A DNA stretch of 42,215 nucleotides from Rhodothermia bacterium (GTDB lineage Bacteria > Bacteroidota > Rhodothermia > Rhodothermales > JAAAOL01): the NCBI GenBank assembly GCA_030428385.1, contig JAUIDY010000049.1, positions 1 through 42,215 of the forward strand. Direction: 5' to 3'. Below, in pieces: positions 1 to 22,200 of the stretch. Under the pieces are notes generated by a model. The model was not told the DNA's origin, searched no databases, and worked only from the letters and a program-made list of their open reading frames with translations. Made by a program: the position numbers and the translations under genes. Each line of letters starts with the position of its first letter. Position 1 is the first letter of the stretch.

Positions 1-267
1 CGTTCGGGCAAATTCCGTGTGGTGCTTGGCCCCTTATCCTTCCGAATGTACCGTTCTTTTTTGCCGGGTCATCCACGTGCTCGGCTTTTACACTACCTGA
101 TCCGGCTTTATGCCCCCGATTACCTCGATTTTGATGTTGAGCTTCAACTGGATACCTCCCAGATACCGCCCGTTCGCTTGGGAAATAGCGATGTGCAACT
201 CGGCTTAACGACCTGGCTAGGGCGGCCAGAACATGCCATCACAAAGCAACAGGTTCAGTACGAGTGA
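1..267 (+). CDS. tssG: TssG (T6SS baseplate subunit), C-terminal fragment
   Basis: This is the last 88 codons of a gene that begins before the window; the frame is open from base 1 and stops with TGA at 265-267. The visible sequence fits the conserved end of TssG/VasB/ImpH: a beta segment reading VVLGPLS, then FLPGH, then RLYAPDYLDFDV, and a terminal LTTWLGRP motif like the LGWTSWLG ending of the family. TssG is a wedge component of the T6SS baseplate and works with TssF, TssE and TssK at the inner membrane. The clpV gene starts 102 bases downstream on the same strand, which supports the call. A GTG at 19 is internal to the conserved region and is not a start. Upstream tss genes are expected outside the window. 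Confidence 0.88.
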   Translation, partial: RSGKFRVVLGPLSFRMYRSFLPGHPRARLLHYLIRLYAPDYLDFDVELQLDTSQIPPVRLGNSDVQLGLTTWLGRPEHAITKQQVQYE

Positions 268-369
268 GCCCCCTGTAAGAAAGCTGGTCGATGTGATTAA
301 AAAATACTTGCACCCTGCCTTTTTTCACGATACGTTCCAAGATCCCATTCTCGCTAACAGCACCGCGCC

Positions 370-3224: not shown

Positions 3225-3266
3225 GACAAAAGAGGGGTGCAGCCCAAATGTGCCCCGTCTTTTGTC
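3225..3266 (+). promoter_or_regulatory. Second long hairpin upstream of vgrG
   Basis: GACAAAAGAGGGGTGCA (3225-3241) pairs with TGTGCCCCGTCTTTTGTC (3249-3266), with one bulged G at 3257 and two G-T wobbles. The loop is GCCCAAA. It follows the UUCG hairpin after ten bases and ends about 105 bases before the vgrG start. No U-tract follows. The two stems make the clpV-vgrG gap highly structured in RNA. Confidence 0.72.
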
Positions 3267-3371
3267 GCAGTTGAAACTAACGGAAGGGGCAGGCCATGTG
3301 CCAAGAAACGATCATCTGCCGCATACAGAGATAGCCTGTTCGCAGCGCCTTCGAAACGAATCAAGAAACTG

Positions 3372-6075: not shown

Positions 6076-6405
6076 ATGCCATTTCCTTCAACGACCATCA
6101 CCTCTGCCGCCATGCACGGACCTCCCACGATGGGGGTCGGGTGCCCTACGGTCTTAATCGGCAACAAACCGGCTTGGCGTGTTACCGATACCCATACCTG
6201 TTCTATTCCAAATGCACCCCCACCAGCTGGCCCAGGAACGCCGCATGGTCCCGGCATCACGTCCCCTCCGGGATGTATCACCGTCATGGTGGGAGGTCCT
6301 CCGCTTACGAGTAATTTTGATCAGATAATGGAGCCGGGGGCCGTCGTGCCGCCATTAACGGTGGATATGATCATGATGGGATTCCCCACGGTCCTCTCCC
6401 CATAG
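6076..6405 (+). CDS. PAAR-domain spike-tip protein
   Basis: A 109-residue protein with the PAAR layout: a TMGVGCPTVLIG segment, then PAWRVTDTHTC (the PAAR-type motif, with histidine and cysteine expected to bind a metal ion), a Pro/Gly-rich middle, and a second strand set with GCITVMVGGPP. PAAR proteins cap the VgrG trimer as a sharp cone and often carry effectors. This one has no C-terminal extension, so it is a tip rather than a toxin fusion. It lies 4 bases after vgrG and 32 before the Rhs gene, which strongly suggests co-expression and joint loading. No Shine-Dalgarno is visible. Confidence 0.88.
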   Translation: MPFPSTTITSAAMHGPPTMGVGCPTVLIGNKPAWRVTDTHTCSIPNAPPPAGPGTPHGPGITSPPGCITVMVGGPPLTSNFDQIMEPGAVVPPLTVDMIMMGFPTVLSP

Positions 6406-6437: not shown

Positions 6438-9203
6438 ATGTCCCTACGCATTGATGTAGCTACTGGCGAAGCCGTCCTGCGCGAAGTAGACCTTCGGTTG
6501 CCTGGCTATATCCCGCTTGAACTGGCCCGGGTGTATCGAAGCGGTTATCCACCGGGCGGGATGTTGGGACATGGTTGGCGGTTTAACCTCGACATTGCGC
6601 TACACCTCGACAGGGAGGTCTGGAGTCTGCAGTACGGGTCAGGGAAAGTCGTACGGTTTAAGCCTGTGCAGGTGGGCGTTCAGGTTACACAAGCCGAACT
6701 GGGCATGGTGTTGCAGCATCACCCCAATGAATACGTGGTGTACGCCTCCCCGTTGGTGCAGATGGTGTTCCCCAAACGCTACGCTCAACGAGGAATCGTT
6801 CCGTTGGGACAGCTCGAAGACCTCGGGGGCAACAAGATCCAGTTTTTCTACCAGGGCAACCGCTTGATGCATCTTGTTGATACGGTAGGTCGGGAGATCA
6901 AGTTGTTATATACCGGGGCCAACATTGGTGGTATTCAGCTTCGAGGTCCAGACCGGAGCCAGCCCCCACTTACCCAGCGGGCTTTTCGGTATGATGGACG
7001 TGGGGATTTGATTGAAGTGCAGGATGCAGTCGGAAGGCGCAAGCAATACCAGTATCGCGACCATCTGTTGGTAGCGGCTGTGAACCCTATGGGGGGGACC
7101 GAGTGCGTTCAGTATGGGGAAGACAAACGTTGTCACACCCGGTGGGACACGAATGGCGGAAAGGTGCGCCAATTTGCATATGATGATGGCAGGCAGGCCG
7201 TCCATGTGATGGACTCGGAAGGTAGGCGGACGGTCTATATCTGTATGATGAATGGTCAGGTGCTTTCTCGCACCACGCCAAACGGGTTCACCCAGCATTT
7301 TTATTATAACGAGGCGCAGCAACCTCTTGGGTATACAGATTTGGTGGGCAACATCGCCATGTTCGTTCACGCAGACGAAAAAGGTAGCTTCACACGGATT
7401 CAGAGCGACACGTTTACCAAAGCCGAGCTTGATGAACGGGGGCTGGCAACCACATGGATGGATGCGCGCGGGATCGTTTATCACCTCACCTATGATGCCC
7501 AGGGACGGTTGTTCACGCAGGCTGTCACGGACGAAACCACGTGGCGCTATGAGCGGGATAGCCGAGGACGCATAACGGCACTGCATACGCCCGAAGAGCG
7601 GCGCATCCGGTTCCGCAGTGAGGAAGGGGCATTGGTGATCGAAGATGAACTGGGATTATGTTTGCGCGAGCGGTACGATCTGATGGGGCGCACGGTAGAG
7701 CGTCATGATGCCCTGGGACGCCAGCAACAATGGCAATATGACGGCGAGGGGCGATTGCTACGGTATGGTGTTGTAGGAGGCTTTCATCTAATCTGCAACT
7801 ACAACCCGGGAGGGCAGCTTACCTCCGTCCAAGATGCCGAAGGGAGAAAGGCCACGCTTCAATATGATGCCCACGGTAGGCTACAGGCATCCAAGGACGA
7901 GGAGGGGCACAGTTGGCGGTATGGGTATGATCGCGAAGGGAAGGTGACCCAGATCCAGGATCAACGGGGAGGCATGGCTTCACTCACCTACGATGCCGAA
8001 GGCCACCTGCTACACGTGGAGGGTTGGAATGGACAGGGGGCCCGATTTGCTCGTTCAGGTGAAGAAACGGTCGTCACCGTGGATGACCAGGGTTTAAAAC
8101 AGGAATGGCATTACGGAGGGTTAGGTGCGCCTCTCACGCAGCAGACTGGCGAGCAAGAAGGGCCGCACTTCATTTTTGATAACCAGGGCAGCTTGGCAGA
8201 AGCCAGTCTCCCAGGAGCAACCTGGACCTGGGCCTATGATGAGCAGGGCAACCTGGCATCCTTGCAACGAAACGATGTGATGCTGTCTTTTTCCTTCACC
8301 CGCGACGGACAGCTTGCGGCCGTAATGGATGAGGCAGGAAATGGAGTTCAACTATTATACGACCCCCGTGGAAGGGTGCAGGAAGTCCTAGAAGAAAACA
8401 ATGGCACCAGCACGGCACGCCATCGTCTTCGATACGACGAAGGAAATCGGTTGAAGGTGTTGACCCTTGACAGTTCTGCGTTTCTTACCATTCGGTATGA
8501 TATGCTGGACCGCGTGACCGAACGGAGCCTTTTTTCCCCGGAACGGACACGGCAAGATCACAAACGTGGGACGAGTCGCGAACTGGAAACCCCCTGGCGA
8601 GATCAACTGACCGTCTCAGAAGGTGAAAGTCGGCTTGTCTTGTTGCAAAATGTCTATGGGTTGGTGTTAGTAATTGAATTAGCGGGCATCCGGATCCCTG
8701 TGTGGAGTCAGTATTGGCTGCTTGCCCCACCCCCGTTGGCATGGGAACGTGAAGTTGAAATCAGTTGTCTGCGCGGAGAAGACGGATTGTTAAAATGGGG
8801 AGGACAGCCTGCCTTGTTAGAGATGCCGGCTCGGTGTCATGCGTTCGCTGGGGCAGCGTGGCCTGCTTTTGCCGGAGATCTGCCGTCCGTCGACGTATTA
8901 TCTCGCTACCTCCCCGTGCTGCCCAATCCGATGTTGTCTCGGGCCGATTATGACCCACAATTTCCCGGCCTGGTACCTGGAATTGAGGAAGGAGAACAAG
9001 TGACCCTCCCCTCCATGTCAGATGATTGCATAACGGGAACGCACGAAGCAGGTCGACCTTCCAGCGTATCGAGAAAAGGTTTTTCGGGGATCGATTGGTT
9101 ATGCCCTTCCCTTGCGGTACCGAATGAGGCGGCGCGTAATGGCTCCGGCTTACTCCGGTTGTTGAAAAATCTCAATGCGATGTCGATGAGCCATGCAGGT
9201 TGA
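6438..9203 (+). CDS. Rhs/YD-repeat protein, candidate T6SS cargo with atypical C-terminus
   Basis: A 921-residue protein. The N-terminus (SLRIDVATGEAVLREVD, LARVYRSG, LGHGWRFN) matches the opening domain of Rhs proteins. Residues about 180-700 are YD repeats of the form YDxxGRL, which build the hollow beta-cocoon that holds toxins in known T6SS Rhs effectors. The usual PxxxxDPxGL core-closing motif is not present. From about residue 702 the sequence departs from the repeat: it includes a hydrophobic stretch (about 733-768) and an unfamiliar 220-residue tail that I cannot assign to any toxin family. No signal peptide. Its stop overlaps the next gene by 11 bases, so translation is probably coupled. 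Position between PAAR and DUF2169 genes supports T6SS delivery. It could be a cargo, a carrier or a decayed effector. Confidence 0.8.
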   Translation: MSLRIDVATGEAVLREVDLRLPGYIPLELARVYRSGYPPGGMLGHGWRFNLDIALHLDREVWSLQYGSGKVVRFKPVQVGVQVTQAELGMVLQHHPNEYVVYASPLVQMVFPKRYAQRGIVPLGQLEDLGGNKIQFFYQGNRLMHLVDTVGREIKLLYTGANIGGIQLRGPDRSQPPLTQRAFRYDGRGDLIEVQDAVGRRKQYQYRDHLLVAAVNPMGGTECVQYGEDKRCHTRWDTNGGKVRQFAYDDGRQAVHVMDSEGRRTVYICMMNGQVLSRTTPNGFTQHFYYNEAQQPLGYTDLVGNIAMFVHADEKGSFTRIQSDTFTKAELDERGLATTWMDARGIVYHLTYDAQGRLFTQAVTDETTWRYERDSRGRITALHTPEERRIRFRSEEGALVIEDELGLCLRERYDLMGRTVERHDALGRQQQWQYDGEGRLLRYGVVGGFHLICNYNPGGQLTSVQDAEGRKATLQYDAHGRLQASKDEEGHSWRYGYDREGKVTQIQDQRGGMASLTYDAEGHLLHVEGWNGQGARFARSGEETVVTVDDQGLKQEWHYGGLGAPLTQQTGEQEGPHFIFDNQGSLAEASLPGATWTWAYDEQGNLASLQRNDVMLSFSFTRDGQLAAVMDEAGNGVQLLYDPRGRVQEVLEENNGTSTARHRLRYDEGNRLKVLTLDSSAFLTIRYDMLDRVTERSLFSPERTRQDHKRGTSRELETPWRDQLTVSEGESRLVLLQNVYGLVLVIELAGIRIPVWSQYWLLAPPPLAWEREVEISCLRGEDGLLKWGGQPALLEMPARCHAFAGAAWPAFAGDLPSVDVLSRYLPVLPNPMLSRADYDPQFPGLVPGIEEGEQVTLPSMSDDCITGTHEAGRPSSVSRKGFSGIDWLCPSLAVPNEAARNGSGLLRLLKNLNAMSMSHAG

Positions 9204-10269
9204 AGGCAGTCACATATCAAATCTGTGGATGCCGGGTGTACGGCTGAAAGGGAAAGACCTGCGGTTCCAAACCTACGTGGACATCGAAGGCGAACGGGCC
9301 GATCTCAGTGATGCCCAGTTGGACGAAACCATCTTTGAGGGCGCCCAGCTTTCCAACGCCATCTTCCGAGGCGCTCGGCTAAACGACGGACGTTTCAAAA
9401 CGTCCATTCTCACCGGGGCTGATTTTTCCCGGGCGCATTTACAGGGGGTTGTCTTTGAACAGTGCCTCCTGGATCAGGTGACGTTTCAGCAAGCGCAACT
9501 CCAGAATGCCCAATTAATTGAATGTGTGGTCACGAAGGCCGATTTCAGGAACAGTCAACTAGATAACATCCAGCTAAAGAAATCGCTGTTGGACGAAACC
9601 AACTTCTCAGGATGCACCCTGAAAGAGGCAGATTGCACAGAAAGTGTCTTTCAACGCGCCACACTTGTCCGCACACGCTTCGAAGGGACCAAGCTTTTGC
9701 GAGCTTCTCTGTATCAGGCACAGCTTATTGAAGCTCACTTCACCAAAAGTGTACTTTCCGGGGCAATCCTCGAAGAGGCTCTCCTTTCAGGGGCCGTATT
9801 CAATGATTCCATCTGCGTCACAACGTATGCGCGTCGCGCTGACCTTTCAAATTGTAAAATGGCGGGAGTGAAAGCGTCCGGCTCTTCCTTCGAACGCGCA
9901 ACCCTAAAAGGAGGGCGTTTTATTGATGTTGTGGCTGACTATGCTGTTTTTGAATATGCCGATCTGAGAGAGGTGCAAATTACCAGTTCAGTCTTTGACA
10001 TGGCAAATTTTGTCGGGGCCGACCTTTCAAACTCACAACTGGTTAAGAGCAGCCTTTATGGGGCCGACTTTTTCCTGTCAGAAGTGAACACGCTGCACCG
10101 GGCGGGATGTGATATGGAACATGCCCGGATGCCTCAGAAGGCCCACCCCAAATATGGTCCCAGCGTGCACCCTCCTCAGATTCAACCACAAGCGGTGTAC
10201 CGAGAAGCGCTGGAACGGACGGAGCGGCATGCCTTGATCCAGAAGGCAATAGGAGGGGAGGGGAACTAG
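9193..10269 (+). CDS. Pentapeptide-repeat protein of the T6SS cargo module
   Basis: A 358-residue protein, nearly all of it pentapeptide repeats of the A(D/N)LxX kind (ADLSDAQLDE, GADFSRAHLQG, KADFRNSQLDN, GADLSNSQLVK). These fold as a right-handed quadrilateral beta-helix. The last 60 residues leave the repeat and end in a charged helical tail (YREALERTERHALIQKA). The start ATG lies inside the end of the Rhs gene (11-base overlap, +1 frame), so coupled translation is likely. The DUF2169 gene follows after 4 bases. From general knowledge, pentapeptide repeats and DUF2169 often occur together near vgrG/PAAR genes, in one protein or adjacent ones. I infer a spike-adaptor or stabilising role. 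A DNA-mimic role, as in Qnr proteins, is less likely in this context. Confidence 0.82.
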   Translation: MQVEGSHISNLWMPGVRLKGKDLRFQTYVDIEGERADLSDAQLDETIFEGAQLSNAIFRGARLNDGRFKTSILTGADFSRAHLQGVVFEQCLLDQVTFQQAQLQNAQLIECVVTKADFRNSQLDNIQLKKSLLDETNFSGCTLKEADCTESVFQRATLVRTRFEGTKLLRASLYQAQLIEAHFTKSVLSGAILEEALLSGAVFNDSICVTTYARRADLSNCKMAGVKASGSSFERATLKGGRFIDVVADYAVFEYADLREVQITSSVFDMANFVGADLSNSQLVKSSLYGADFFLSEVNTLHRAGCDMEHARMPQKAHPKYGPSVHPPQIQPQAVYREALERTERHALIQKAIGGEGN

Positions 10270-10273
10270 GCGT

Positions 10274-11359
10274 ATGGATATTCAAAACAACACCCCCTTC
10301 GAAACAAGCCTTGCTATCGGGTTAGGTCCCAATCGCCAACCATGCGTGTCATTGGTTGTCAAGGCCACCTACACCATTCCGGCGGAGCAAGGAATGGCTC
10401 CCAAAGTCGCCGAGTCCCAGATCGAATTTTTTAAGGGCGATGAATATCACGATGGCGATGTTACGGGAAGTCTGCTTTACGAAACAGACGATATCGCCTT
10501 TAAGCCCAACGCAGATATTGTTGTTGTAGGTCACGCCAATACGCCGGGTCTTCGGCCTATGCATCAACTTGATGTGATGCTTCGTGTGGGGCGGTTGCAA
10601 AAGGTGGTTCGCGTCTTCGGGGACCGGCACTGGCTATTTCCAAGCAAAATGGTGATGGTTCCAATTATCACCGATCCAAAGCCCTTTCAAACGCTTCCCC
10701 TGCGGTATGAATATGCGTTTGGGGGGACGGACCGAAAAGCGGCCAAGTGGTTTTCAAAAAATGCCATCGGAAAAGGGTTTATTGGGAATAAAAAACCGGA
10801 ATCTGTAGACGGAAAGCCGCTTCCCAATATTGAAGATCCATATCGGCTGATTTCGTCGTGGGACGATGAACCCGATCCGGCAGGTTTTGGGTTTTACAGC
10901 CGGACCTGGCAGCCCCGAATCGGGCTTGGTGGCACTGTGCAAGGAGGGGCAGAGGCTCATCCGCTATTCGGGCTAGGTTCCGATTTCAGCGTTGCGTATT
11001 TCAATGGAGCTCCCCCCGATTTACAGGTCCCAGGTTACCTAGTCGGGAATGAAGCGGTTGAAATGATGAATTTCACGCCCGATGGACCCCGCCGTTTTCC
11101 ACTCCCTGGCGTGCGTCCGAGTTTGGTGCTCCGTACCTTGCAACATCCCGAAGATGAAGTTCCAGCCGAGATGCAGGAACCGCCACAGGCTCATCAACTG
11201 AAGCCGAACCTGGATACCCTGGTGCTTTTGCCAGACGAAGGTGTTTTTTATATGGTATGGCGAGGCATTCATCCGATAGGAGAAATCCCCGATGAAGACG
11301 CGCTAATCCATGTGTTCAAAAAAATTGTCGCAGCCGAGATATCCCTCGAAAACGTATAA
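10274..11359 (+). CDS. DUF2169 family T6SS adaptor-like protein
   Basis: A 361-residue protein matching DUF2169: an early LVVKATYTI segment, then FKGDEYHDGD, a DIVVVGHA strand, VFGDRHW, and LRYEYAFGGTD, with a late NFTPDGP motif. DUF2169 proteins are found near vgrG and PAAR genes and are thought to help load spike-associated effectors; the mechanism is not firmly established. Here it follows the pentapeptide gene by 4 bases and precedes the fused sheath gene by 17. The purine-rich GGAGGGGAGGGG before its ATG lies within the end of the pentapeptide gene and is one of the few Shine-Dalgarno-like sequences in the cluster. No signal peptide or membrane segment, so a cytoplasmic role is expected. 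Confidence 0.87.
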   Translation: MDIQNNTPFETSLAIGLGPNRQPCVSLVVKATYTIPAEQGMAPKVAESQIEFFKGDEYHDGDVTGSLLYETDDIAFKPNADIVVVGHANTPGLRPMHQLDVMLRVGRLQKVVRVFGDRHWLFPSKMVMVPIITDPKPFQTLPLRYEYAFGGTDRKAAKWFSKNAIGKGFIGNKKPESVDGKPLPNIEDPYRLISSWDDEPDPAGFGFYSRTWQPRIGLGGTVQGGAEAHPLFGLGSDFSVAYFNGAPPDLQVPGYLVGNEAVEMMNFTPDGPRRFPLPGVRPSLVLRTLQHPEDEVPAEMQEPPQAHQLKPNLDTLVLLPDEGVFYMVWRGIHPIGEIPDEDALIHVFKKIVAAEISLENV

Positions 11360-11379
11360 CGTGAGGCTTGTGCCTCATG
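11360..11379 (+). promoter_or_regulatory. Hairpin burying the first ATG of the sheath-fusion gene
   Basis: CGTGAGGC (11360-11367) pairs with GCCTCATG (11372-11379) around TTGT, with one G-T wobble. The left arm starts directly after the DUF2169 stop codon and contains the only GAGG. The right arm contains the ATG at 11377. If that ATG is used, translation should depend on opening this stem. If the ATG at 11419 is the true start, the hairpin sits in the leader. Confidence 0.65.
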
Positions 11380-13299
11380 CTCAATGTCCTTTATCACCCT
11401 GCTAAAAAATTCAAGGTCATGGAAAATAATCCCGAACGCCGGGTAGGCATGTTCGTAAGCTCCGATCCCGACGAAACCCTGATGCATACCCAGCCTGAAG
11501 GATCCACGGCACAGGAGCAGCAGGGGCAACTACCCCTTCGTTTTCTGTTTGTTGGCGACCTCGATCCGGCGGCGGCGGGTCACGAGCCTGCCACGCCCAA
11601 AGTGTGGTCGGTGGATAAAAACAGTTTTGCTGGGGTAATGGCCAATATCAACCCTCGGATAGTGCTGGACGTCCCCAATCATGTAGCGGAGTCCCCCAAG
11701 ATGCTGGAGTTGAACCTCCAGTTTGACAGCCTGCGTGATTTTGAGCCCGCTGCCGTAGCGCGACAGGTACCTGCGCTCAATCAACTAATCGAGATTCGTA
11801 CGTTGGTGAATCGGGTAAGCAAAGGCGACGTGGCTCTTGATCATTTCGAAAATGAGCTTCAAGCAATTGGGGTGGATGCGGCATGGGCTGCAGACTTAGC
11901 CAAAACCCTCAGTCGTCCATCGGCATCCACTCCGCCACCGGCTGCAGGTTCCAGTGGAAGTCCAACACTCGACCGCTTGCTTGGAATGATGGGTGAGGGG
12001 CCTGCCCCAAAGGAGAGAGCCCCAAAAGAGGAGGGCGGAGGGCTGTTAGATTCCTTGTTCGATGCGGTGGCAGGGGATACGCAGTCCGGTGCGCAGGTAG
12101 AAAAAACCGCCGCGAGCGGGCTGATGGGCAACCTGGACGGCGTCATCAGTACGCAGTTAAACGCCATCTTTTCTGCCCCTGCTTTTCAGCAATTAGAAGC
12201 GGCATGGCGCAGTGTCAAGATTCTTGTAGACCGCCTCGACTTCCGGGAAGCCATCTTGCTGGAAGTGGTCCCGGCAGGACGCCAAAACCTTGCCGAGGTC
12301 CTGTATTATCAGGTTTTGCTTCCCGAGCATAGCGAGGACAATCCCAAAATGCCACTTTCAGCCGTACTGATTGGGGAGACGTTCGGTAATACGGCCGAGG
12401 ATTTCGAACTGCTCAATGAGTTGGCGGAGACAGGAGCCAGTTTGCAGACGCCCGTTATTGCAGGGGTCAATCCTTCCTTTTTTGGATCCGCAACGGCAAA
12501 AAAATTCAGCAGGCTGCCGGTGTTGTGGCAACTGCTGGAAGGTCCGGAATACATTGAATGGCACAAGCTGCGGGATCGAGAAGAAGCCAGTTTCCTTACC
12601 CTTGCGGTTCCACCCTTTTTGTTACGTCCATCGTACGGCGAATCACATCCTGCCAAAGGCGTCGGGTTTGAAGAGGATGGACAGTCGTGGGGAAGTGGTG
12701 CCCTTGCCGTGGCAATCTTAATGGCTGATAGCTTTGTCAGCACCGGCTGGCCTACGCACCTGACGGGGGGCGGCCCTCGCACCATCACCAATCTCCCCAT
12801 CTGGAAGGCAGGGCATGGGCACACGCCCTTGACGGCATTGCTCTCCAGCGATGCGCAGCGCGATCTGTCGAAGGCTGGATTTACAGTGTTGGGTGGATCC
12901 ATGAACCGAGACACCATCCATATTGAACGGGCGCAGACCGTCCGCAAGCCGGAATCCCACGACGATTTGATGGCTGCAACCGAGGCCAAGCTGCATATCG
13001 GCTTGCCAAGTCAACTCTTTGTGGCCCGGTCGGCTCACTTCTTACTCATGCTCCAGCGGCTCATGGATCCCGTGGAGGACGTTGAATCTACGCGCCTCAC
13101 GCTGGAGGCTGTCCTTAACAAATTCATCGCCGGATCCAACCAAACGGCATCGCTTGATGCGGTATCTGTGGAGTATGTAGACGAGGCGGGATTACCCGAG
13201 CACGAATTGTTTGCTGTCCGTCTCCGTGCACCAAAGCACATCCTGAGTCGGCCAGTGAGCCTTGTTCTGGGCATCCAATTACCAAAAGCCAGCGCCTAG
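11377..13299 (+). CDS. TssB-TssC-like fused T6SS sheath protein
   Basis: A 640-residue protein combining two sheath families. Residues about 50-150 resemble TssB/VipA (LRFLFVGDL, VDKNSFAGVMANINPRI, VARQVPALNQLIEIR). Residues about 253-640 resemble TssC/VipB (ISTQLNAIF, FQQLEAAWRSVKILVD, a WGSGALAVAILMADSF segment, then the FVARSAHFLL region). The linker between them is Pro/Ala/Gly-rich and holds two short amphipathic helices: LDRLLGMM (198-205) and LLDSLFDAV (223-231). The second resembles the N-terminal TssC helix that ClpV recognises in other systems. Length is close to TssB plus TssC. The ATG at 11419 (MENNPERR) is a serious alternative start; a TTG at 11368 is less likely. Ordinary tssB/tssC genes, if present, lie outside the window. 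Confidence 0.75.
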   Translation: MLNVLYHPAKKFKVMENNPERRVGMFVSSDPDETLMHTQPEGSTAQEQQGQLPLRFLFVGDLDPAAAGHEPATPKVWSVDKNSFAGVMANINPRIVLDVPNHVAESPKMLELNLQFDSLRDFEPAAVARQVPALNQLIEIRTLVNRVSKGDVALDHFENELQAIGVDAAWAADLAKTLSRPSASTPPPAAGSSGSPTLDRLLGMMGEGPAPKERAPKEEGGGLLDSLFDAVAGDTQSGAQVEKTAASGLMGNLDGVISTQLNAIFSAPAFQQLEAAWRSVKILVDRLDFREAILLEVVPAGRQNLAEVLYYQVLLPEHSEDNPKMPLSAVLIGETFGNTAEDFELLNELAETGASLQTPVIAGVNPSFFGSATAKKFSRLPVLWQLLEGPEYIEWHKLRDREEASFLTLAVPPFLLRPSYGESHPAKGVGFEEDGQSWGSGALAVAILMADSFVSTGWPTHLTGGGPRTITNLPIWKAGHGHTPLTALLSSDAQRDLSKAGFTVLGGSMNRDTIHIERAQTVRKPESHDDLMAATEAKLHIGLPSQLFVARSAHFLLMLQRLMDPVEDVESTRLTLEAVLNKFIAGSNQTASLDAVSVEYVDEAGLPEHELFAVRLRAPKHILSRPVSLVLGIQLPKASA

Positions 13300-13330
13300 G
13301 TCCGATGTACGGCCTGTCGGTAGTTAAAGT

Positions 13331-13368
13331 CCTCAGCGCGGGTTATACTATATTGATTCGCGCTGAGG
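13331..13368 (+). promoter_or_regulatory. Perfect 10-bp inverted repeat upstream of the FHA-transglycosylase gene
   Basis: CCTCAGCGCG (13331-13340) and CGCGCTGAGG (13359-13368) are exact reverse complements with an 18-base AT-rich centre containing TATACT, which resembles a -10 box. It lies 25 bases before the ATG at 13394. It could be an operator over a promoter or an RNA stem. No T-run follows, so it is not a standard terminator. Confidence 0.7.
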
Positions 13369-13393
13369 CTGTCGAGGCAGACCCATTCAACCG

Positions 13394-15199
13394 ATGCAAC
13401 CAACCACCATCCGCGTCCGTGTCGAGATCCCAGATGGTCCGACGATTGAACGCTCCTTTAATACTTCGTTCACGCTGGGGCGTGTGCCTGAATGTGATGT
13501 TCAGGTGCAATCGGGGCTGGTGAGTCGTGTCCATGCCGAGGTGGTCTATGAACAGGGACAATGGTGGTTACACGACCGGAATAGCACAAACGGGGTTTTT
13601 CAGGAAGGGGTGCGCATCAGCCAGGCCGCCGTGGGAGAACGTGCCCTCTTTCAACTAGGCAACAACGGCCCCCTGGTACATCTTCAAGCCGAGCGTACCA
13701 CGGCCCCTCCCGTGACCAGGGTGGATCCGGTTCCTGAGCCGCTGGCCGACCCTATGCAAGACCTGAGCCTGCCCCCTTTGCAAGATCTAAGTTTGCCCCC
13801 GCTCCAAGATCTGAGCCTGCCGCCGGAGGATACACCACTTGCGGCACAAGAATCTGATGGGCCGAAGCTTTCCCCTAAAGAGGCTTTTGAAGCGCGTAGA
13901 CGGCAAGAGTCGTTTCACAGGCAAGGGCCGCTGCCTGAAGCAGGGTCCTTTGTTAACGCGGTAAATGCGCCCACTTCGGTTGAGTCTGATCCTACATCTT
14001 CTCCTCCTCAAAAGGATGAACGGGAGATGTCGGATGTGATCGCACATTATTTTGACCCCGAAGACGACACCCCGGCAGGAGAGCGGACGATGATGATCCG
14101 CCATGCCTACAAAACCGTTAAGAAGAAAGAGAAACGGAAATACACGGGAATTATCATCGCAGTTGGGGTTTTGTTTGTGCTTGCGGCGGCATTTGCCATC
14201 TTCAAACAGGTGCAGAGCAGCAGGCAGCAGCAATTAGCTGAAGAGATTTTTACCCAGATGAAACAACAAGACCTTCGCACTGCGCAGGTGCTGCAGGTCA
14301 TCTTGGGTCGTGAGGATGCAGGCGACGCAGAACTGCAGGCCCTGGTGGAAGGGGTGCGCGAGGACAGACAGCGGCTGGCGTCTCAGTACAACGGATATGT
14401 AAAAGAACTAGGGCTCTACCGGAGACTGAGCGAAGAAGAGGAACTGATCTATCGGGTGGCGCGCATCTTTAACGAGAGTGAATTTGGGATGCCCGCTGGT
14501 TTTATCCGAGAAGTACGTCGCACCATTCGGGAGCATTGGCAGGGACCGGGTCGCGGAACGTTTATCACCGCTGTGGAACGGGCAAACGAAAATGGGTATA
14601 CCCCCGTAATCGTGAAGACGATGCAAGACTATGGCTTGCCCCCCGAGTTCTTTTACCTTTCGATGCAGGAAAGTGTCTTCAACGTAGAGGCAGTAGGTCC
14701 GGCCACGCGATGGGGGATTGCAAAAGGGATGTGGCAGTTTATCCCCTCAACGGCCCAGCGATATGGTCTCCGCACCGGCCCGCGCGACAACTTGCGGGTG
14801 GTGGACGACCAGGACGACCGCCACGATTTCCGGAAAGCAACCGACGCAGCAGCACGTTATCTTCTTGATATCTACAGCACCCCGGCCCAGGCCTCAGGGC
14901 TGCTGGTGATTGCTTCCTACAACTGGGGTGAGCATCGGGTGGTGAACAAGCTGGAACGGCTGCCCGGTCCACAAACCATTCCAGAAGAAGCATTTGAAGG
15001 CATCCCCTTGGATCCCTCAGAACGAACTTACTGGCGCTTCCTAACGGAATACAGCGATCGTATGCCAGAAGAAACCAAGGACTATGTACTGAAGATTTTT
15101 GCGGCTGCTGTTATCGGGCAGAACCCTCGGTTGTTCGGCTTTGATTTTGATAATCCTTTACAACCCTATATGGAAATTCCCAGCGATTTAGTAGAATAG
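13394..15199 (+). CDS. FHA domain - transmembrane - lytic transglycosylase fusion
   Basis: A 601-residue protein in three parts. Residues 1-100 are a forkhead-associated domain with the phosphothreonine-reading set G29-R30, S44-R45-x-H47 and N66-G67. A linker carries three 8-residue repeats (122-145). A single membrane helix lies at about 252-271, preceded by KKKEKRK, which predicts FHA inside and the C-terminus in the periplasm. The C-terminal domain is SLT/MltD-like: PPEFFYLSMQES with E426 as probable catalytic acid, then GMWQFIPSTAQRYGL and IASYNWGE. Lytic transglycosylases cut peptidoglycan, and some T6SSs need one to cross the wall. The PP2C and kinase genes follow directly, so FHA likely reads their phosphorylation. 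In Pseudomonas the reader (Fha1) is separate, so this fusion is notable. Confidence 0.88.
   Translation: MQPTTIRVRVEIPDGPTIERSFNTSFTLGRVPECDVQVQSGLVSRVHAEVVYEQGQWWLHDRNSTNGVFQEGVRISQAAVGERALFQLGNNGPLVHLQAERTTAPPVTRVDPVPEPLADPMQDLSLPPLQDLSLPPLQDLSLPPEDTPLAAQESDGPKLSPKEAFEARRRQESFHRQGPLPEAGSFVNAVNAPTSVESDPTSSPPQKDEREMSDVIAHYFDPEDDTPAGERTMMIRHAYKTVKKKEKRKYTGIIIAVGVLFVLAAAFAIFKQVQSSRQQQLAEEIFTQMKQQDLRTAQVLQVILGREDAGDAELQALVEGVREDRQRLASQYNGYVKELGLYRRLSEEEELIYRVARIFNESEFGMPAGFIREVRRTIREHWQGPGRGTFITAVERANENGYTPVIVKTMQDYGLPPEFFYLSMQESVFNVEAVGPATRWGIAKGMWQFIPSTAQRYGLRTGPRDNLRVVDDQDDRHDFRKATDAAARYLLDIYSTPAQASGLLVIASYNWGEHRVVNKLERLPGPQTIPEEAFEGIPLDPSERTYWRFLTEYSDRMPEETKDYVLKIFAAAVIGQNPRLFGFDFDNPLQPYMEIPSDLVE
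13757..13828 (+). repeat. Three tandem 24-bp repeats (QDLSLPPL) in the FHA-transglycosylase linker
   Basis: Codons 122-145 encode QDLSLPPL, QDLSLPPL and QDLSLPPE. The DNA copies differ mainly at third positions, so the peptide repeat looks conserved rather than a fresh slippage product. It lies between the FHA domain and the membrane helix, on the predicted cytoplasmic side. Confidence 0.9.
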
Positions 15200-15229
15200 A
15201 CTATTAAGGCCTGGATAACCCCTGTAGCT

Positions 15230-15988
15230 ATGCTCTGGAAAACAAAAAGAAAGCGTGCCCTCCGTGTTGGTGTCGTGTCGGATGTGGGTCAGGTACGCTC
15301 CGAAAACCAAGATTCATGGGGGATTTATCCCGAGTCGCGCAATGGCGAAGAAGTGCCGAATGAGCAACTTTTCCTCGTCGCGGATGGAATGGGTGGCCAT
15401 GAACATGGTCAGGAAGCCAGCCGCATGGCAGCCCGGTTCATCAGCGAATATTACTTTGCCCATGCAAACTGGGAGATTGTAGATCGACTCGATCATGCCT
15501 TTCAGGTTGCCAACAAACGCATCTGGGCACGCTCCAACGAGGGCGAAGAAAAGATGGGCACGACCTGTACGGCGCTGGCTCTTTTGGGCCGAGAATTTTA
15601 CCTCGCTCATGTTGGTGATAGCCGGTGTTATCGTATCAACGAAGAGGGTATTGAGCAGGTGACGACAGATCACACCCTGGTGGAAGAGATGCGCCGAGAG
15701 GGCGTCTTAACCGAGGAAGAAGCCCTTCACCATCCCAGGCGGCACGCCCTTATGCGCGCTCTTGGAATCCGCGAGGAAACCGACATTGATATTCTTGGGC
15801 CTTTCCCCGTAAAAATGGGTGACCGCTATCTGCTCTGTTCGGATGGGCTCGCACCGGTTCAAAATGACGAACTGCATCGCCTGGTGATGGCAACCAATGT
15901 CCCGCAAGAAGCATGTGAGACGTTGGTTGCGTTGGCAAATGAGCGAGGTGGCCCCGACAACGTCACTGTCCTGGTGGTATCGTTTTGA
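15230..15988 (+). CDS. PP2C-family Ser/Thr phosphatase (PppA-like)
   Basis: A 252-residue stand-alone PPM/PP2C phosphatase. Metal-binding residues are all present: R23-SENQ-D28, D52-GMGG, D205-G206 and GGP-D243-N244. The HVGDSR motif is at 127-132 and GTT precedes it. The domain fills the protein; there is no signal peptide or membrane helix, so it is cytoplasmic. In Pseudomonas-type T6SS, PppA removes phosphate from Fha1 and opposes the kinase PpkA. Here the same pair lies in order after the FHA fusion, so a matching role is inferred. The intergenic gap from the FHA gene is 30 bases. Confidence 0.92.
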   Translation: MLWKTKRKRALRVGVVSDVGQVRSENQDSWGIYPESRNGEEVPNEQLFLVADGMGGHEHGQEASRMAARFISEYYFAHANWEIVDRLDHAFQVANKRIWARSNEGEEKMGTTCTALALLGREFYLAHVGDSRCYRINEEGIEQVTTDHTLVEEMRREGVLTEEEALHHPRRHALMRALGIREETDIDILGPFPVKMGDRYLLCSDGLAPVQNDELHRLVMATNVPQEACETLVALANERGGPDNVTVLVVSF

Positions 15989-15994
15989 GGGGAA

Positions 15995-16067
15995 GGGATC
16001 CTCGAATTGCTGATCCCGTACTGCAGGCACTGTTTCTGAGGATCCCGGTGCCGTGGCATGAGGCACC
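15995..16067 (+). promoter_or_regulatory. Two abutting stems between phosphatase and kinase genes
   Basis: GGGATCCTC (15995-16003) pairs perfectly with GAGGATCCC (16038-16046) across a 34-base loop. Immediately after it, with no spacer, GGTGCC (16047-16052) pairs with GGCACC (16062-16067). The second stem ends 18 bases before the kinase ATG, and those bases are A-rich. No U-tract follows. The layout would allow stacked helices in the RNA and could control kinase synthesis relative to phosphatase. Confidence 0.7.
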
Positions 16068-16085
16068 AAAACCAAAAAAGAGCCG

Positions 16086-18020
16086 ATGATTGGTCAGGTT
16101 CTAGATGGGTATAAAATCGTAGACATCCTGGGCCGAGGAGGCATGGGCATTGTCTACAAGGCCGAAGATCAGGAACTGCGTCGCCACGTGGCACTCAAGA
16201 TGATCGATCCGGCACTGGCCAAGGATGATACCTTTGTGCTACGCTTCCGACGAGAGGCACAGGCCTTGGCCCGGATCGACAGCCGCCACATCGTGGGCGT
16301 CCACGCCTTGCGTCGCACAGAGCAAGGGCTCTTTATCGTAATGGAATACGTGGATGGGGGAACGGTCGGCGATTTGATCAAGGAAGACCCGCTTTCGATG
16401 GATTCGGCCATCCCCATCATCGACCAGATGTTGCTGGCATTTGAGGCTGCGCATAGCGTTGGGATTGTTCACCGGGATATCAAGCCGGGCAATGTCATGC
16501 TAACCAGCAGCGGCACCGTGAAAGTAACCGACTTTGGACTGGCGAAGCGGTATCGCGAAGGGGAAGTCACCCAGGCTACGGTGACGCAGGGCATTGCTGG
16601 TACCTTGTATTACATGTCTCCAGAGCAGGTGCAGGGAAGCAAAGATCTTGATCATCGGAGTGACATCTTTTCGATTGGGGTAACCCTGTACCGCATGCTG
16701 GCTGGTCGGTTGCCCATCGAAAAAGGCAGTGGCGAATTCTCGGTCATGCGGGACATCGTAGAAACGGAGTGGCCGCCCCCGTCTACCTATAATCCCCGGC
16801 TTTCAAAGGCCGTTGATGCGTTTGTGATGCGCGCGTTGGTGAAAGACCCGGAGGGACGGTACCAGAGCGCCCGGGAGATGCGGGAGGCCTTAAAGCAAAT
16901 ACAATCAGGTGGCGAAGTGCCACACTGGGACGCCAAGTCTGATGATGACCATCCAACACCGCGTCCCAAATGGTTAGTAGCAACCCTTAGCCTGGTCGGT
17001 ATTGCTCTGATCGCTACCGCGGTCGCATTGTTTGTTATCCGGGACGGAGGCGGGACGAACGGTGGAACGGACATAATAGAAACCACAGGCACCATCCGGT
17101 TAGCTGATCTGCCAGCGGACGCCGTGGTGCTTATCAACGGGCAAGCCATGCAACCGGGTGAGGCGTGGGAGACAGAGGCGGGGCCGGCCACCGTTTTGGT
17201 AGAAAAAGAAGGCTTTTTGCCCTGGACGCAGCGCGTCCAAGTGGAAGCCGGGGAAACCATTTCCTTCCTTGTAAGCCTTGAGCCCGTTGCCCAACAACTT
17301 CCCGATGATCCTGACGAAAATCCCATCGAAACCGTTACGACCACCAATCCCACACCTACCACTGGAACAATTCGCTTGCAAGGGGTGCCTGCCGGTGCCA
17401 ATGTCCGCATTAATGATCAACCGGTGAATGCCGGTGCAGACATCACATGGCGAACCGGCGGTGCCACCGTAGTCGTAGAACTGGCAGGTTTTGAGCGATG
17501 GAGCCAGACCATCCAGGTTCCAGGGGGGCAACTGTACCCACTTCAAGTGAACCTGATACCCGAAGAAACAGAAAACGTCGAAGCACAAACGGTGGCTGTT
17601 ACGCTCTCCCCGACATCGGGTGGCAGTGCAGTGATTGCTGGGGGTACCCCGGTTCGTAGCCGCTCGACCGTGCAGGTACCGCCGGGTCGGCATCAGGTGA
17701 CGTTTCGTGATCCAACGTATGGCGAATGGACCACATCTGTGGATGTAAGCAGTGCACGCACCCTGACGGCCTATTTTGAGCGAGAAGTGCAGGTTGGGCT
17801 GGACTCGCCCGATGGTGGCTCCATGTTCGCGGCCTTGTGGATTGATGGGGAAAGTGCCGGGACGGCACCCGCAGTTCTTACCCTAGGGCGCGGCATCCAT
17901 ACAATCAATATCACCAAGGCGGATTACGAAGTGTTGGACCCTCAGCAACAGATCCAGATTGATCCGTCGCTCCAAAAACCGGAGCCCTTGCGTGTTGTGT
18001 TCCGAATGCAGCGCCAGTAA
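16086..18020 (+). CDS. Transmembrane Ser/Thr protein kinase with PEGA-like repeats (PpkA-like)
   Basis: A 644-residue protein. The N-terminal kinase domain (about 9-275) has the glycine loop G16-RGGMG, K38 for ATP binding, HRDIKPGN with catalytic D131, DFG at 149-151, and SPE in place of the usual APE. A single membrane helix lies at about 297-317. The outside part holds at least two PEGA-like repeats (TGTIRLADLPADAVVLING, then TGTIRLQGVPAGANVRIN), followed by two more divergent copies. It fits the PpkA position in the threonine-phosphorylation pathway, but PpkA of Pseudomonas has a different periplasmic sensor. PEGA repeats are often found on envelope proteins; envelope sensing is inferred. 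Targets are probably the neighbouring FHA protein or T6SS parts. Confidence 0.92.
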   Translation: MIGQVLDGYKIVDILGRGGMGIVYKAEDQELRRHVALKMIDPALAKDDTFVLRFRREAQALARIDSRHIVGVHALRRTEQGLFIVMEYVDGGTVGDLIKEDPLSMDSAIPIIDQMLLAFEAAHSVGIVHRDIKPGNVMLTSSGTVKVTDFGLAKRYREGEVTQATVTQGIAGTLYYMSPEQVQGSKDLDHRSDIFSIGVTLYRMLAGRLPIEKGSGEFSVMRDIVETEWPPPSTYNPRLSKAVDAFVMRALVKDPEGRYQSAREMREALKQIQSGGEVPHWDAKSDDDHPTPRPKWLVATLSLVGIALIATAVALFVIRDGGGTNGGTDIIETTGTIRLADLPADAVVLINGQAMQPGEAWETEAGPATVLVEKEGFLPWTQRVQVEAGETISFLVSLEPVAQQLPDDPDENPIETVTTTNPTPTTGTIRLQGVPAGANVRINDQPVNAGADITWRTGGATVVVELAGFERWSQTIQVPGGQLYPLQVNLIPEETENVEAQTVAVTLSPTSGGSAVIAGGTPVRSRSTVQVPPGRHQVTFRDPTYGEWTTSVDVSSARTLTAYFEREVQVGLDSPDGGSMFAALWIDGESAGTAPAVLTLGRGIHTINITKADYEVLDPQQQIQIDPSLQKPEPLRVVFRMQRQ

Positions 18021-18041
18021 CGCATTACTCAGTAGTGAAGC

Positions 18042-18112
18042 GCGTTGGAACGATTCTCGCTCTTTGCTGCTTGTACGAATTCACCTCCACCAACGCCAGA
18101 GGGCTACCTCTG
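18042..18112 (+). promoter_or_regulatory. Two abutting stems upstream of the first CsgG-like gene
   Basis: GCGTTGG (18042-18048) pairs with CCAACGC (18090-18096), 41-base loop. Directly after it CAGAGG (18097-18102) pairs with CCTCTG (18107-18112) around GCTA. The second hairpin ends 8 bases before the ATG at 18121 and so may occlude ribosome entry. The layout, long-loop stem then short hairpin with no spacer, matches the element before the kinase gene although the sequences differ. Confidence 0.65.
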
Positions 18113-18120
18113 CTAGGACG

Positions 18121-19149
18121 ATGAAAATAAACGCTGGTACCCGCCACCTGACCCTCACCCTTTCGCTGGTGTTTTGCCTCGTTTGGAATGCCGCTGCCCA
18201 GGATGCCCGTTTTCAGCAAGGGCAACAAGCCTATAGCAGCGCGGACTTCGAAGGAGCCATTCAGCATTTTATCGCTGTTTCTGCCGATACGTCTGCGCCG
18301 CTCGAATTACGCGAGGAGGCGCTTAAATATCTCGGACGTGTCTACATTGCAAAAAACGCCCTTGAAGAAGCGCGCAACGTCGTGACACAACTCCTCGATC
18401 TGGAGCCGCCCCTCGTAGAACTTGACCCTGAAGTGGAGCCGCCGCCACTCATGAAGATCTACTACGAGGTCCGCAAGGAGTATGAAGGAAACTACAACGT
18501 GCAGCAAGCCGACCCGGGTATCCAGACGCTTGCTGTGATGGACTTCACGAACAACTCCATTGACGATCATGAGCGGTTCGACCCAATGCGTCAAGGCTTT
18601 GCCTCGATGATGATCAATACCCTGGGTGGAGCAACCGACCTGAAAGTGGTAGAGCGCGAACGTTTGCAGTGGTTGCTAGGTGAACTTGATTTGCAGCGCA
18701 GCGACTATGTAGATCAGGCATCTGCTGTGAGGGCCGGTAATCTTCTGGGGGCCCATGTTGTGCTCTTTGGGGCCTATACCGTTCATCGGAAACAGATCCA
18801 ACTAAGTGCCCGGCTGGTGAAAGTAGAAACAGGGGAAATCCTGTTGGCTGAGCAGGTGCTGGGAGACCGGGATGATTTCTTCGAACATGTAGAAAAGCTA
18901 AGCCTCGAGGTGGCCCGTTCCATCAACAGTTCGTTAGAAGAGACAACCGTGGGCGCACGTACCGAGACCCGTTCCCTAGACGCACAAATCTCTTACTCGG
19001 AAGGGCTGGGTGAACTCGATAAAGGAAACTATCACGCGGCCTACGAGAAATTCCAGGAAGCGTTGGATTATGATCCAAATTTCGAACGGGCTCGAACAAA
19101 AGCTGACAGCCTCCAGCCAATGCTTGCGCAAGCAGTTATCGATGGCTGA
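18121..19149 (+). CDS. Periplasmic TPR + CsgG/FlgO-like protein
   Basis: A 342-residue exported protein. A signal peptide (LTLTLSLVFCLVW, cut after NAAA) is followed by TPR-like helices with GQQAYSSADFEGAIQHF and EALKYLGRVYI. The middle is a CsgG/FlgO-like domain: TLAVMDFTNN, FASMMINTLGG, VVERERLQWLLGELDL, YVDQASAVRAGNLLGA, VLFGAYTV. A last TPR unit follows (GNYHAAYEKFQEALDYDP). The cysteine in the signal is not a lipobox, so it is probably soluble in the periplasm. The frame is open upstream to 17959, but that part overlaps the kinase gene; the ATG at 18121 starts the signal peptide. It is a clear paralogue of the lipoprotein at 23309, with the large ASH-repeat gene between them. Confidence 0.82.
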   Translation: MKINAGTRHLTLTLSLVFCLVWNAAAQDARFQQGQQAYSSADFEGAIQHFIAVSADTSAPLELREEALKYLGRVYIAKNALEEARNVVTQLLDLEPPLVELDPEVEPPPLMKIYYEVRKEYEGNYNVQQADPGIQTLAVMDFTNNSIDDHERFDPMRQGFASMMINTLGGATDLKVVERERLQWLLGELDLQRSDYVDQASAVRAGNLLGAHVVLFGAYTVHRKQIQLSARLVKVETGEILLAEQVLGDRDDFFEHVEKLSLEVARSINSSLEETTVGARTETRSLDAQISYSEGLGELDKGNYHAAYEKFQEALDYDPNFERARTKADSLQPMLAQAVIDG

Positions 19150-19168
19150 TTGACACATCAATTCCTTG

Positions 19169-19202
19169 GGGGCGCACCACATCATTGCTTTTGGTGCGCC
19201 CC
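19169..19202 (+). terminator. Probable terminator after the first CsgG-like gene
   Basis: GGGGCGCACCA (19169-19179) and TGGTGCGCCCC (19192-19202) form a perfect 11-bp GC-rich stem with a 12-base loop, 20 bases after the stop codon. Only a short TTT follows, so termination may be partial. It may separate the T6SS/kinase transcript from the ASH-protein gene. Confidence 0.6.
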
Positions 19203-19297
19203 TTTGCGAAGTAGCATCTCCCTCTAAAAAGACGTACCATACACAAGGTGTGTGGGCGTGTAGCAAACGGGTCCTTCTTCATCTCACCTCGCCGATC

Positions 19298-22200
19298 ATG
19301 CATTTGGATCGATACCAAGGTTTATTGAGATGGTTAGCGTTGTTAATGGTCTTGCTCGTATTGGGAGGACCGCTCCAACGTGTTTACGGGCAAAATTCGG
19401 GTAGTCCTTCGGCCGACGCGTTGAATAAATCGTTCGGGGTGACCGCGCAAGGGTGTACCTTTGGTGAGTTTGCAGCCGATTGTGACTTTGGCAACGTAGC
19501 TCAAGGGTCTTTCTCAGGGCAAGGCATTCGATGGACAGCAGACGAAGGTAATCTAGAGCCCATCAATGTGTCCTTAATTGATGTCGTGGAGGGAGGGGCA
19601 GATTTTCGGGTCGACCATCCAGGAGGCGTCATTCTCGATCCAGGGGAATTTTTCGATTTCTCGGTGACGTTTGGTCCAACCATGGCAGGATTTCAGGATG
19701 GGCGGGTAGAAATAGTCACGCGGGATATTGATACCGATGACGTCATTCAGGTTTATGATGTGAATCTGATGGGAGTAGGCATCGGGGAGCAGCCTGTTTA
19801 CGACTTCGGGGATGTTTCGGTGGGTGGAGAGGCTTCGCTAGAAGGGGTCTTTATCGTACCTCCTGGCTTCCCATTTGGATACGGATCCATCACAGATATC
19901 TCAATCCTGGGAGGAGGGAGCGTCTTCACGGAGGATTTCATCGGTCCGGAGTTGCTGCAGCCTGGGATAGATGTTCTTTATGATGTCATTTTCTCTCCCT
20001 TGACGCTCGGGTTGGCGCAAGCTGAATTACTGGTAGAACTCAGGCGGAATGATACCAATGCGATCGCATTTGTCCAACGCATTGCCCTCGTCGGAAACGG
20101 TATTCCTCCTGCTCCCAACATTGTCGTTGATCCTCTGTCTCTCGACTTTGATGAACAAGCGGTTGGGGAACTTGTCACGCTCCCACTGACCATCACCAAC
20201 ACGGGGACCTTAGATTTAATCTTGACCTCGTTTGATGTGACAGGGACGTACGCGGGCGATTACACGGCACCGACCGGCCTGAATGGAACCGTGCTACTTC
20301 CAGGCGGATCGGTGGTGGCCGACATTGGATTTCAACCAAACGGGATCGGATTACGCGATGCGCAGCTATTAATTAGCAGCAATGATCCAGATACACCCGC
20401 CCTTCCGGTTCCGCTTATGGGACAGGGGGTACAATCGATGCCTTTGCTTGAGGTGTCGCCGTCAAGTATCAACTTTGGCAATGTTCGGATTGGCAACACC
20501 TTACAGCAAGATATTATGGTTGCCAATGAAGGGAACGGTATCTTGAATGTGAGTTCGATTCAGGTGCAAGGATCGGCCAGTACCGATTTTGAAGTAAGCA
20601 GTTCGATGCTCGCACTGGCTCCAGGTGAAAACGAAATCATTCAGGTTACGTTTGATCCTCAGGCTCGGGGTATGCGTGAGGCGCAGGTTGCCTTTACGAG
20701 TAATGGCGGAAATGCAACCGTTGATGTGACGGGGCAAGGCGTAGCGCCTCAGCTCGTCGCTCCCACGTCGGTAACCCTCCCCTCTACGCCCGTTGGTGAG
20801 TCTTCCATGGCTTCCTTTGACCTTTCTAACACGGGCAATGCCTCGCTGCGCGTGACAAGTCTTACCCTTGGCCAGCCGAATGGACCATTCCAAATTACAC
20901 GTGGTGGGACGGTGCCTTTGCTCACGGTGGGTAGTTTGCATTCCATTGAAATCACCTTCTCACCCACCTCAAGCGGTCAGCAAAACGATATCCTCACGAT
21001 ATTGTCTGATGACCCGCTCCAGCCTGAGGTCATGGTGGCGTTGAGCGGACAATCGGGTAATTCCTTCGTTGTTGATCCATCAACCATCGATTTTCAAGAC
21101 GTAGAAGTAGGCTCTTCATTGAACGATGCCATAGGATTTCAAAACATTGGCACGTCTCCGATCACCATAACCCAACTGCAAACCTCCGGGGCAACATCAT
21201 TCAATACAACAGCTACTTTCCCCGTTTTGGTAGACGGAGGAACAACGGCAGTTATTCCGGTCACTTTTGCTCCCACAACGCGGGGGGCAGTGGCGGCTAC
21301 ATGGACCCTCATTACGGATGCGGATGGGGCCACGGCTATGGTGTCACTAATGGGTACGGGCATCGCGGCTGTGGCGCAGGTCGACCAACAACAACTCGAT
21401 TTTGGACTTACCACGTTGGGCACGTCAACGGAGCGTATGTTGACCATATCCAACCAAGGAGATGCGCAGCTGTTGGTTTCTTCGACGCAGATTAATGGGG
21501 CCGAAGCTGCAGCCTTTACTGTTCAAGGGGGAGATTCTTTTACCCTCGACCCCTCCCAGAGTCGGATCCTCACCCTTTCCTTCGCTCCGCTACAAGGAGA
21601 CTCCTATTCCGCGACGCTCGTGATGGAAACGAACGATCCTGCGCAGCCCAATGTCAACGTCCCGTTGAGCGGGCAGGGGGCCCCCATCATAAACACGACG
21701 GCTCAGTTGGGAACGTTGGGGCAAGTTGCCTCTGTTGGGTTCACGGTCCCAAACAACTTGGTGGGTGCTGCCGGGACGCTCTTTTACCGTTTATCTGGAC
21801 AAGCTGCTTTTCAGAGCATGGGGTTAAGCGCCAACGGATCGGTTTATACAGGGACCATACCGGGGAATATGGTTCAGACGCGTGGGGTGCAGTATTACGC
21901 GCAGTTTCAGACGGACGATCTTCTGGTGACTTATCCGGCCGCAGATGCCGCAACAATGCCGGCAGAAATTCGGGTACAGATACCGCAAGCCGATTCCCCG
22001 CTTTCACTGAGTCCGACGCAATACGAAATGGTCTCCGTCCCCTTTGGGATTCTTGCAGAATCAGTAGAAACGGTCCTCGGCGATGATTTTGGTCCATATG
22101 ATCCGAATGTATGGCGCTTGCTCCGCTGGGACCCGATCGACGGGGCGTACACCGAGTTTCCGATGATTCGTGAGGGGAGTGAACTGGTGGATTTTCTTCC

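Follow-up and report, generated by a model that had tools for sequence, protein, structure and literature searches.

The window analyzed here is a whole contig of a Rhodothermia bacterium (JAUIDY010000049.1, 42,215 bases), the start of which adjoins tssH, a gene of the type VI secretion system (T6SS). All window genes described below are on the forward strand. The gene at positions 13394–15199, with an ATG start, encodes a protein of 601 amino acids (aa), hereafter FHA-SLT, composed of an FHA domain, a linker, a membrane helix, a helical stalk, and an SLT domain. The FHA domain occupies residues 2–101 (13397–13696), a juxtamembrane motif predicted to be cytoplasmic and conserved among homologues occupies residues ~213–249 (HYF...AGERTMMIRHAY...KKKEKRK; 14030–14140), the single membrane helix occupies residues 252–270 (14147–14203), and an MltD-like, GH23-type SLT domain occupies residues 353–601 (14450–15196). 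Thirty nucleotides downstream starts a gene for a PP2C Ser/Thr phosphatase of the Stp1 type (15230–15988), one of only two matches to PF13672 in the 6.19-Mb genome, and then follows a gene for a membrane Ser/Thr kinase (16086–18020) with the kinase domain at residues 9–262, a membrane helix at ~300–318, and two PEGA domains beyond this helix. An earlier note on this DNA, made from the sequence alone, had described the fusion and the phosphatase and kinase genes behind it; this gene order is borne out, and the fusion is supported alike by the Pfam domains, the membrane helix, the structural model, and the homologues.

Both domains score far above the Pfam cut-offs (FHA at residues 27–88, E 4e-14; SLT at residues 409–521, E 1e-15). 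The residues expected to contact phosphothreonine, that is, G29, R30, S44, R45, H47, N66, and G67, are all present, and the SLT domain contains the catalytic motifs E426-S427, GMWQF (445–449), and YNWG (509–512); both the FHA residues and E426 are found exactly where the earlier note had placed them. When the C-terminal part is compared by sequence with the PDB, MltD of Pseudomonas aeruginosa ranks first (8rhe, E 6e-10), and in this alignment E426 coincides with the glutamate of the ES motif of MltD. The AlphaFold model, built with an alignment of 81 sequences, has a mean predicted local distance difference test score (pLDDT) of 83, exceeding 95 over the FHA domain and most of the SLT domain. 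Residues 2–101 of the model form an FHA sandwich, best matched by FHA-1 of Rv1747 (6ccd; Z 17.7, root-mean-square deviation (rmsd) 1.3 over 95 residues), so that the fold, whose absence the earlier note would have counted against its proposal, is predicted; residues 353–601 form a lytic transglycosylase fold, best matched by MltD (Z 19.0, rmsd 3.2 over 194 residues). By fold and contact residues, the FHA domain is a putative phosphothreonine reader, and by fold and motifs the SLT domain is a putative lytic transglycosylase that would cleave glycan strands to 1,6-anhydro products.

The only strong hydrophobic peak of the protein is at residues 252–270, preceded by the basic stretch KKKEKRK (243–249); by the positive-inside rule, the protein is predicted to cross the membrane once, with the N-terminus inside and the C-terminus outside. 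The charge difference across the helix gives the same orientation, with the FHA domain inside and the SLT domain outside, for 77 of 81 homologues, and no second peak resembling a membrane helix is seen in any of the 81. These predictions agree with the cytoplasmic FHA and periplasmic SLT proposed in the earlier note, which would have taken an SLT domain on the cytoplasmic side as refutation.

Among 394 genomes sampled from the phylum, where scoring was confined to the top three candidates of each genome, 12 genomes besides that of the window contain a homologue (E ≤3e-51), and the N-terminal FHA region is seen in every one of these. Matches of the next tier (E 2e-20 and weaker) are limited to single domains, for the most part SLT regions in other proteins. 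Among GTDB representatives, 277 matches were confirmed, the best 80 of which were aligned with the window protein, giving the set of 81. The SLT domain is present in 81/81, and the FHA domain in 79/81, both exceptions (L057, L081) being cut by contig ends. The search patterns were located in the SLT domain, hence, its invariance among the 80 is partly by construction, while the presence of FHA is not, save for the choice of the best 80. The domain order, which the earlier note had suggested tracing through T6SS loci, thus recurs in the phylum and beyond; as every complete homologue has it, a mis-joined open reading frame, a frameshift, or a chance fusion is ruled out. Of the 79 members with a readable FHA domain, 77 retain the contact residues intact.

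The homologues are assigned mainly to Thermodesulfobacteriota, Acidobacteriota, Myxococcota, Pseudomonadota, Bacteroidota/Rhodothermota, Ignavibacteriota, and Nitrospirota; most come from metagenome bins, and single odd placements may be due to mis-binning. In a tree built from the C-terminal part, members group strongly by phylum (19 changes, whereas shuffles average 45), which is what an old family would show, and no plasmid-borne copies were found in PLSDB at 1e-25. Cultured carriers include Thiocapsa roseopersicina DSM 217, Desulfopila sp. IMCC35008, and Roseithermus sacchariphilus. Members from one genus have an expanded linker of several hundred residues, rich in Ser, Pro, and Thr, from the FHA domain to the membrane helix (L045–L046 in G034, L047–L048 in G131, L052–L053 in G013) and are 1040–1093 aa long. 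A further copy, cut by a contig end (L051; G250:C120:1-19000, bases 1–1319, minus strand), retains the FHA residues, with SIS in place of ES and GVWQL in place of GMWQF; this copy, from a genome with no TssK match, is a possible pseudoenzyme.

The T6SS linkage claimed in the earlier note is seen both in the genes of the operon and in the distribution of TssK. In the phylum sample, TssK is present in 16 of 394 genomes: in 9 of the 13 carriers of FHA-SLT and in 7 of 381 non-carriers (Fisher p 1.3e-11; by genus, 5e-7). FHA-SLT is found in 9 of 11 genomes with a high-scoring TssK and in none of the five with weaker TssK scores. Across phyla, 43 of 50 carriers have TssK, and the two genes are at most 60 kb apart in 19 of the 21 genomes that have them on a single contig. 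The order of Desulfopila sp. IMCC35008 (G417) has TssK in 21 of 146 genomes, including all three carriers. For loci with at least 8 kb of flanking sequence (n = 59), a T6SS gene is found within 10 kb in 27, and a T6SS, PP2C, or Ser/Thr kinase gene in 38; the reading-frame picker took antisense open reading frames in place of FHA-SLT at L061, L063, L064, L079, and L120, hence, these neighbor counts are lower bounds. Neighborhood families were defined as connected components (Louvain clustering at resolution 2 split the largest ones). Finding FHA-SLT in a genome is thus a sign that a T6SS is present, but not the reverse. With an association above chance and a catalytic domain predicted outside, FHA-SLT has two of the features looked for in a T6SS-dedicated wall enzyme.

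The rest of the operon points the same way. Upstream of FHA-SLT are genes for the TssH/ClpV ATPase (370–3120; TIGR03345, 1170 bits vs. a cut-off of 885) and, by domain or family match, VgrG (3237–6071), a PAAR-like protein (6076–6405), an RHS protein (6438–9203), a pentapeptide protein (9193–10269), and a DUF2169 protein (10274–11359), followed, as the last gene before FHA-SLT, by a single-chain TssB+TssC-like sheath protein of 643 aa (11368–13299; VipA at residues 49–180, VipB at 255–525). Together, the membrane kinase, the PP2C phosphatase, and an FHA protein in a T6SS cluster make up the gene set of a T6SS threonine-phosphorylation module.

On contig C202 of the same genome, a TagH-type protein (FHA with T6SS_FHA_C, PF20232; L134:2684-3862) is encoded beside TssJ, TssK, TssL, and TssM. 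FHA-SLT is thus a second FHA protein of the system, an added reader and not a substitute, and its replacing the canonical Fha is ruled out. The contrast drawn in the earlier note, with FHA and transglycosylase in separate proteins in Pseudomonas, holds in that the fusion is real; the Pseudomonas arrangement is not displaced, as a separate TagH/Fha1-type protein is also encoded. No overlap that would connect the window start with contig C202 into one T6SS locus was seen; both carry T6SS genes. In genome G336, which, as well as G179, is of the same order as the window genome, the corresponding T6SS in the FHA-SLT region comprises TssG, F, E, Hcp, TssA, TagF, TssM, L, K, J, and an FHA protein.

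The sheath protein exists alongside an ordinary TssC (G000:C170). Both VipA and VipB domains are present in 11 of 12 aligned relatives of it that adjoin FHA-SLT in several phyla. In structure searches with its model, TssC structures match with Z ~29–30, and residues ~53–628 are matched along single-chain sheaths of phages and extracellular contractile injection systems (Z ~15–21); it may be a further sheath, of phage-like type, or a special ring within the sheath. The 94-nt gap between this gene and FHA-SLT contains a perfect 10-bp inverted repeat (CCTCAGCGCG / CGCGCTGAGG, 13331–13368, 18 nt between the arms), with no T run after it; a scan for promoters and terminators over 11300–18100 gave nothing clearly over the shuffled expectation.

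Downstream of the kinase are two CsgG/TPR proteins (17959–19149 and 23309–24688), an Ig-repeat protein (19166–23305), and a hypothetical protein (24706–25842), all of which recur beside FHA-SLT in relatives. The first CsgG/TPR protein shows a weak match to LpoB, and the Ig-repeat protein has HYDIN-type repeats and a C-terminal signal similar to that of the type IX secretion system. Their recurrence downstream of FHA-SLT, PP2C, and the kinase hints at a larger envelope module.

We give an even chance to the reading that FHA-SLT is a transglycosylase with the MltD fold, anchored in the inner membrane and bearing its FHA domain on the cytoplasmic side, an accessory of the T6SS threonine-phosphorylation module that opens the cell's own wall. 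The SLT domain would be held on its helical stalk in the periplasm, with the FHA domain in the cytoplasm. The neighboring membrane kinase, when active, would phosphorylate threonines on a T6SS component or on FHA-SLT itself; the FHA domain would bind the phosphothreonine, and the enzyme would be gathered at the assembling T6SS, where it would cut glycan strands and let the TssJLM complex pass the cell's own wall; PP2C would reverse these steps. In its most economical form, this reading has a T6SS-dedicated transglycosylase positioned through phosphothreonine, and perhaps gated. The earlier note spoke of phosphorylation-gated opening at the firing site; both the gating and the site may be as proposed, as far as we infer from anatomy and gene context. 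More tentatively, and with a lower probability, FHA-SLT would represent a multi-phylum family in which one chain carries a phosphothreonine signal across the inner membrane to a dedicated peptidoglycan cutter, with the FHA domain on phosphorylated T232 at the foot of the continuous helix, and the sacculus is opened only where and when the T6SS is licensed.

Several observations weigh against the T6SS-accessory reading. As noted, a separate TagH-type reader is encoded in the window genome. Only 3 of the 21 genomes with TssK in the order of Desulfopila carry FHA-SLT, which is therefore not a general part of the T6SS. No TssK match is found in four carriers of the phylum (G055, G251, G014, G250) and in 7 of the 50 elsewhere, and for most of the Acidobacteriota copies no T6SS, PP2C, or Ser/Thr kinase gene was found within 10 kb. 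These TssK-negative carriers and Acidobacteriota copies, together with the G055 copy, whose neighbors are a NamZ exo-muramidase and YmdB, favor an alternative in which FHA-SLT is a phosphorylation-tuned transglycosylase for general envelope remodeling, placed in a T6SS operon only via the shared kinase and phosphatase. We consider this unlikely given the strong co-occurrence with TssK in the phylum, the three carriers of three in a second, unrelated order, and the proximity of the two genes in 19 of 21 genomes. Two loci speak directly against it: FHA-SLT is at most 0.7 kb from TssK in L093 (G418) and at most 1.4 kb in L105 (G426), and neither a Ser/Thr kinase nor PP2C was found in the flanks of these loci. 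The L093 protein has a degenerate FHA domain and no T232; judging by its sequence, FHA reading may have been lost in this lineage while the T6SS link stayed. Overall, the family is usually T6SS-associated and not strictly T6SS-bound.

T232, in the juxtamembrane motif, is the basis of another account, in which the kinase phosphorylates this residue (T-x-x-[I/V]), the FHA domain of a neighboring copy binds it, and FHA-SLT clusters by self-recognition. T232 is kept in 79/81 homologues, and the residue at +3 is Ile, Val, Met, or Leu in 78/81; FHA domains are known to favor a hydrophobic residue at this position. Intact FHA residues and T232 occur together in 76 of the 79 members with a readable FHA domain, and in G014, a genome with no TssK match, R30, R45, N66, and T232 are all lost and E426 is kept. 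On the other hand, Y219, G229, R236, and A238 are conserved about equally to T232, which may be a mere helix cap in a structural motif of ~25 residues; L110 keeps T232 with degenerate FHA residues, and L089 keeps the FHA domain without T232. Conservation thus fits T232 as a possible FHA target and equally as a helix cap, and we assign self-recognition a small probability.

Positioning as the main role of the FHA domain has also to be weighed against true gating, in which phosphothreonine binding by the FHA domain alters the long transmembrane helix and switches the SLT activity on or off. In the model, a single continuous helix (residues 230–305) links the cytoplasmic motif, across the membrane, to the stalk and has the conserved T232 near its N-terminal end, and full-length TagX of Acinetobacter, a T6SS wall enzyme, is apparently inactive until shortened, which its authors explain by possible autoinhibition (PMC5061870). 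The region between the FHA domain and the motif (residues ~105–207), however, is largely disordered (pLDDT mostly <50) and differs greatly in length among relatives, which makes it a poor mechanical link, so that recruitment or clustering is easier to imagine. Recruitment is also the simpler account of the same facts; gating, which keeps some plausibility because the helix is continuous, seems improbable to us. Finally, a secreted T6SS effector degrading the wall of the target cell, an idea favored by the locus shared with VgrG, PAAR, and RHS genes and by the fact that peptidoglycan-cutting effectors are common, is scarcely credible and was rejected on topology and anchoring: the FHA domain is predicted to be cytoplasmic, the anchor is internal, the domain order is identical in every complete homologue with no PAAR, RHS, or VgrG fusion, and the gene is often away from VgrG.

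If the positioning of a T6SS-dedicated enzyme is the right reading, it bears on how the T6SS membrane complex crosses the cell's own wall, which has been answered only for single cases, MltE in enteroaggregative Escherichia coli (EAEC) and TagX in Acinetobacter. A T6SS-linked transglycosylase with its own phosphothreonine reader would then be a dedicated enzyme in many phyla, and the known kinase/phosphatase switch would be tied directly to wall opening. According to a 2023 review, dedicated transglycosylases are "an exception in T6SS clusters" (PMC10433429), and no mention of transglycosylases is made in the main text of a genome-wide survey of the T6SS from 2009 (PMC2660368). No paper describing the FHA–transglycosylase fusion, its breadth, or its T6SS link was found in a search that covered neither most subscription papers nor any preprints, so that a prior description is possible. 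T6SS FHA readers, kinase/phosphatase control, and wall enzymes are already known separately; the fusion itself appears to be new.

Compared with known systems, FHA-SLT is similar to Fha1/TagH of the PpkA/PppA/Fha1 system of the P. aeruginosa H1-T6SS in its N-terminal FHA domain, its T6SS cluster, and the adjoining kinase and PP2C genes, but lacks T6SS_FHA_C (no PF20232; TIGR03354 35 bits vs. a cut-off of 120) and has a membrane helix and a transglycosylase instead. Fha1 is the target of PpkA and PppA in P. aeruginosa, and in Agrobacterium phosphorylated TssL is bound by Fha (PMC10433429). The housekeeping MltE, which is recruited and stimulated by TssM in EAEC, resembles it in the SLT fold (2y8p, Z 14.1) and in the task proposed, local opening of the wall for the T6SS; FHA-SLT differs in its predicted inner-membrane anchor, in being encoded together with the T6SS, and in having an FHA domain of its own (PMC10433429). 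TagX, which the Acinetobacter T6SS needs, is likewise an inner-membrane peptidoglycan enzyme encoded in the T6SS cluster, with a periplasmic C-terminal catalytic domain, but is a VanY-like L,D-endopeptidase, and FHA is not mentioned in the text of the paper (PMC5061870). MltD of P. aeruginosa (8rhi/8rhe/8rhf) is the best match of the catalytic domain in both structure and sequence, as given above; in contrast to it, FHA-SLT has no LysM match in Pfam, its SLT domain ends near the C-terminus, and it has the membrane anchor and the FHA domain instead, and at 45 bits vs. a cut-off of 508 for the MltD model NF008050 it is not MltD proper. The anatomy of FHA-SLT would thus unite in one chain roles that have been established separately for Fha, MltE, and TagX.
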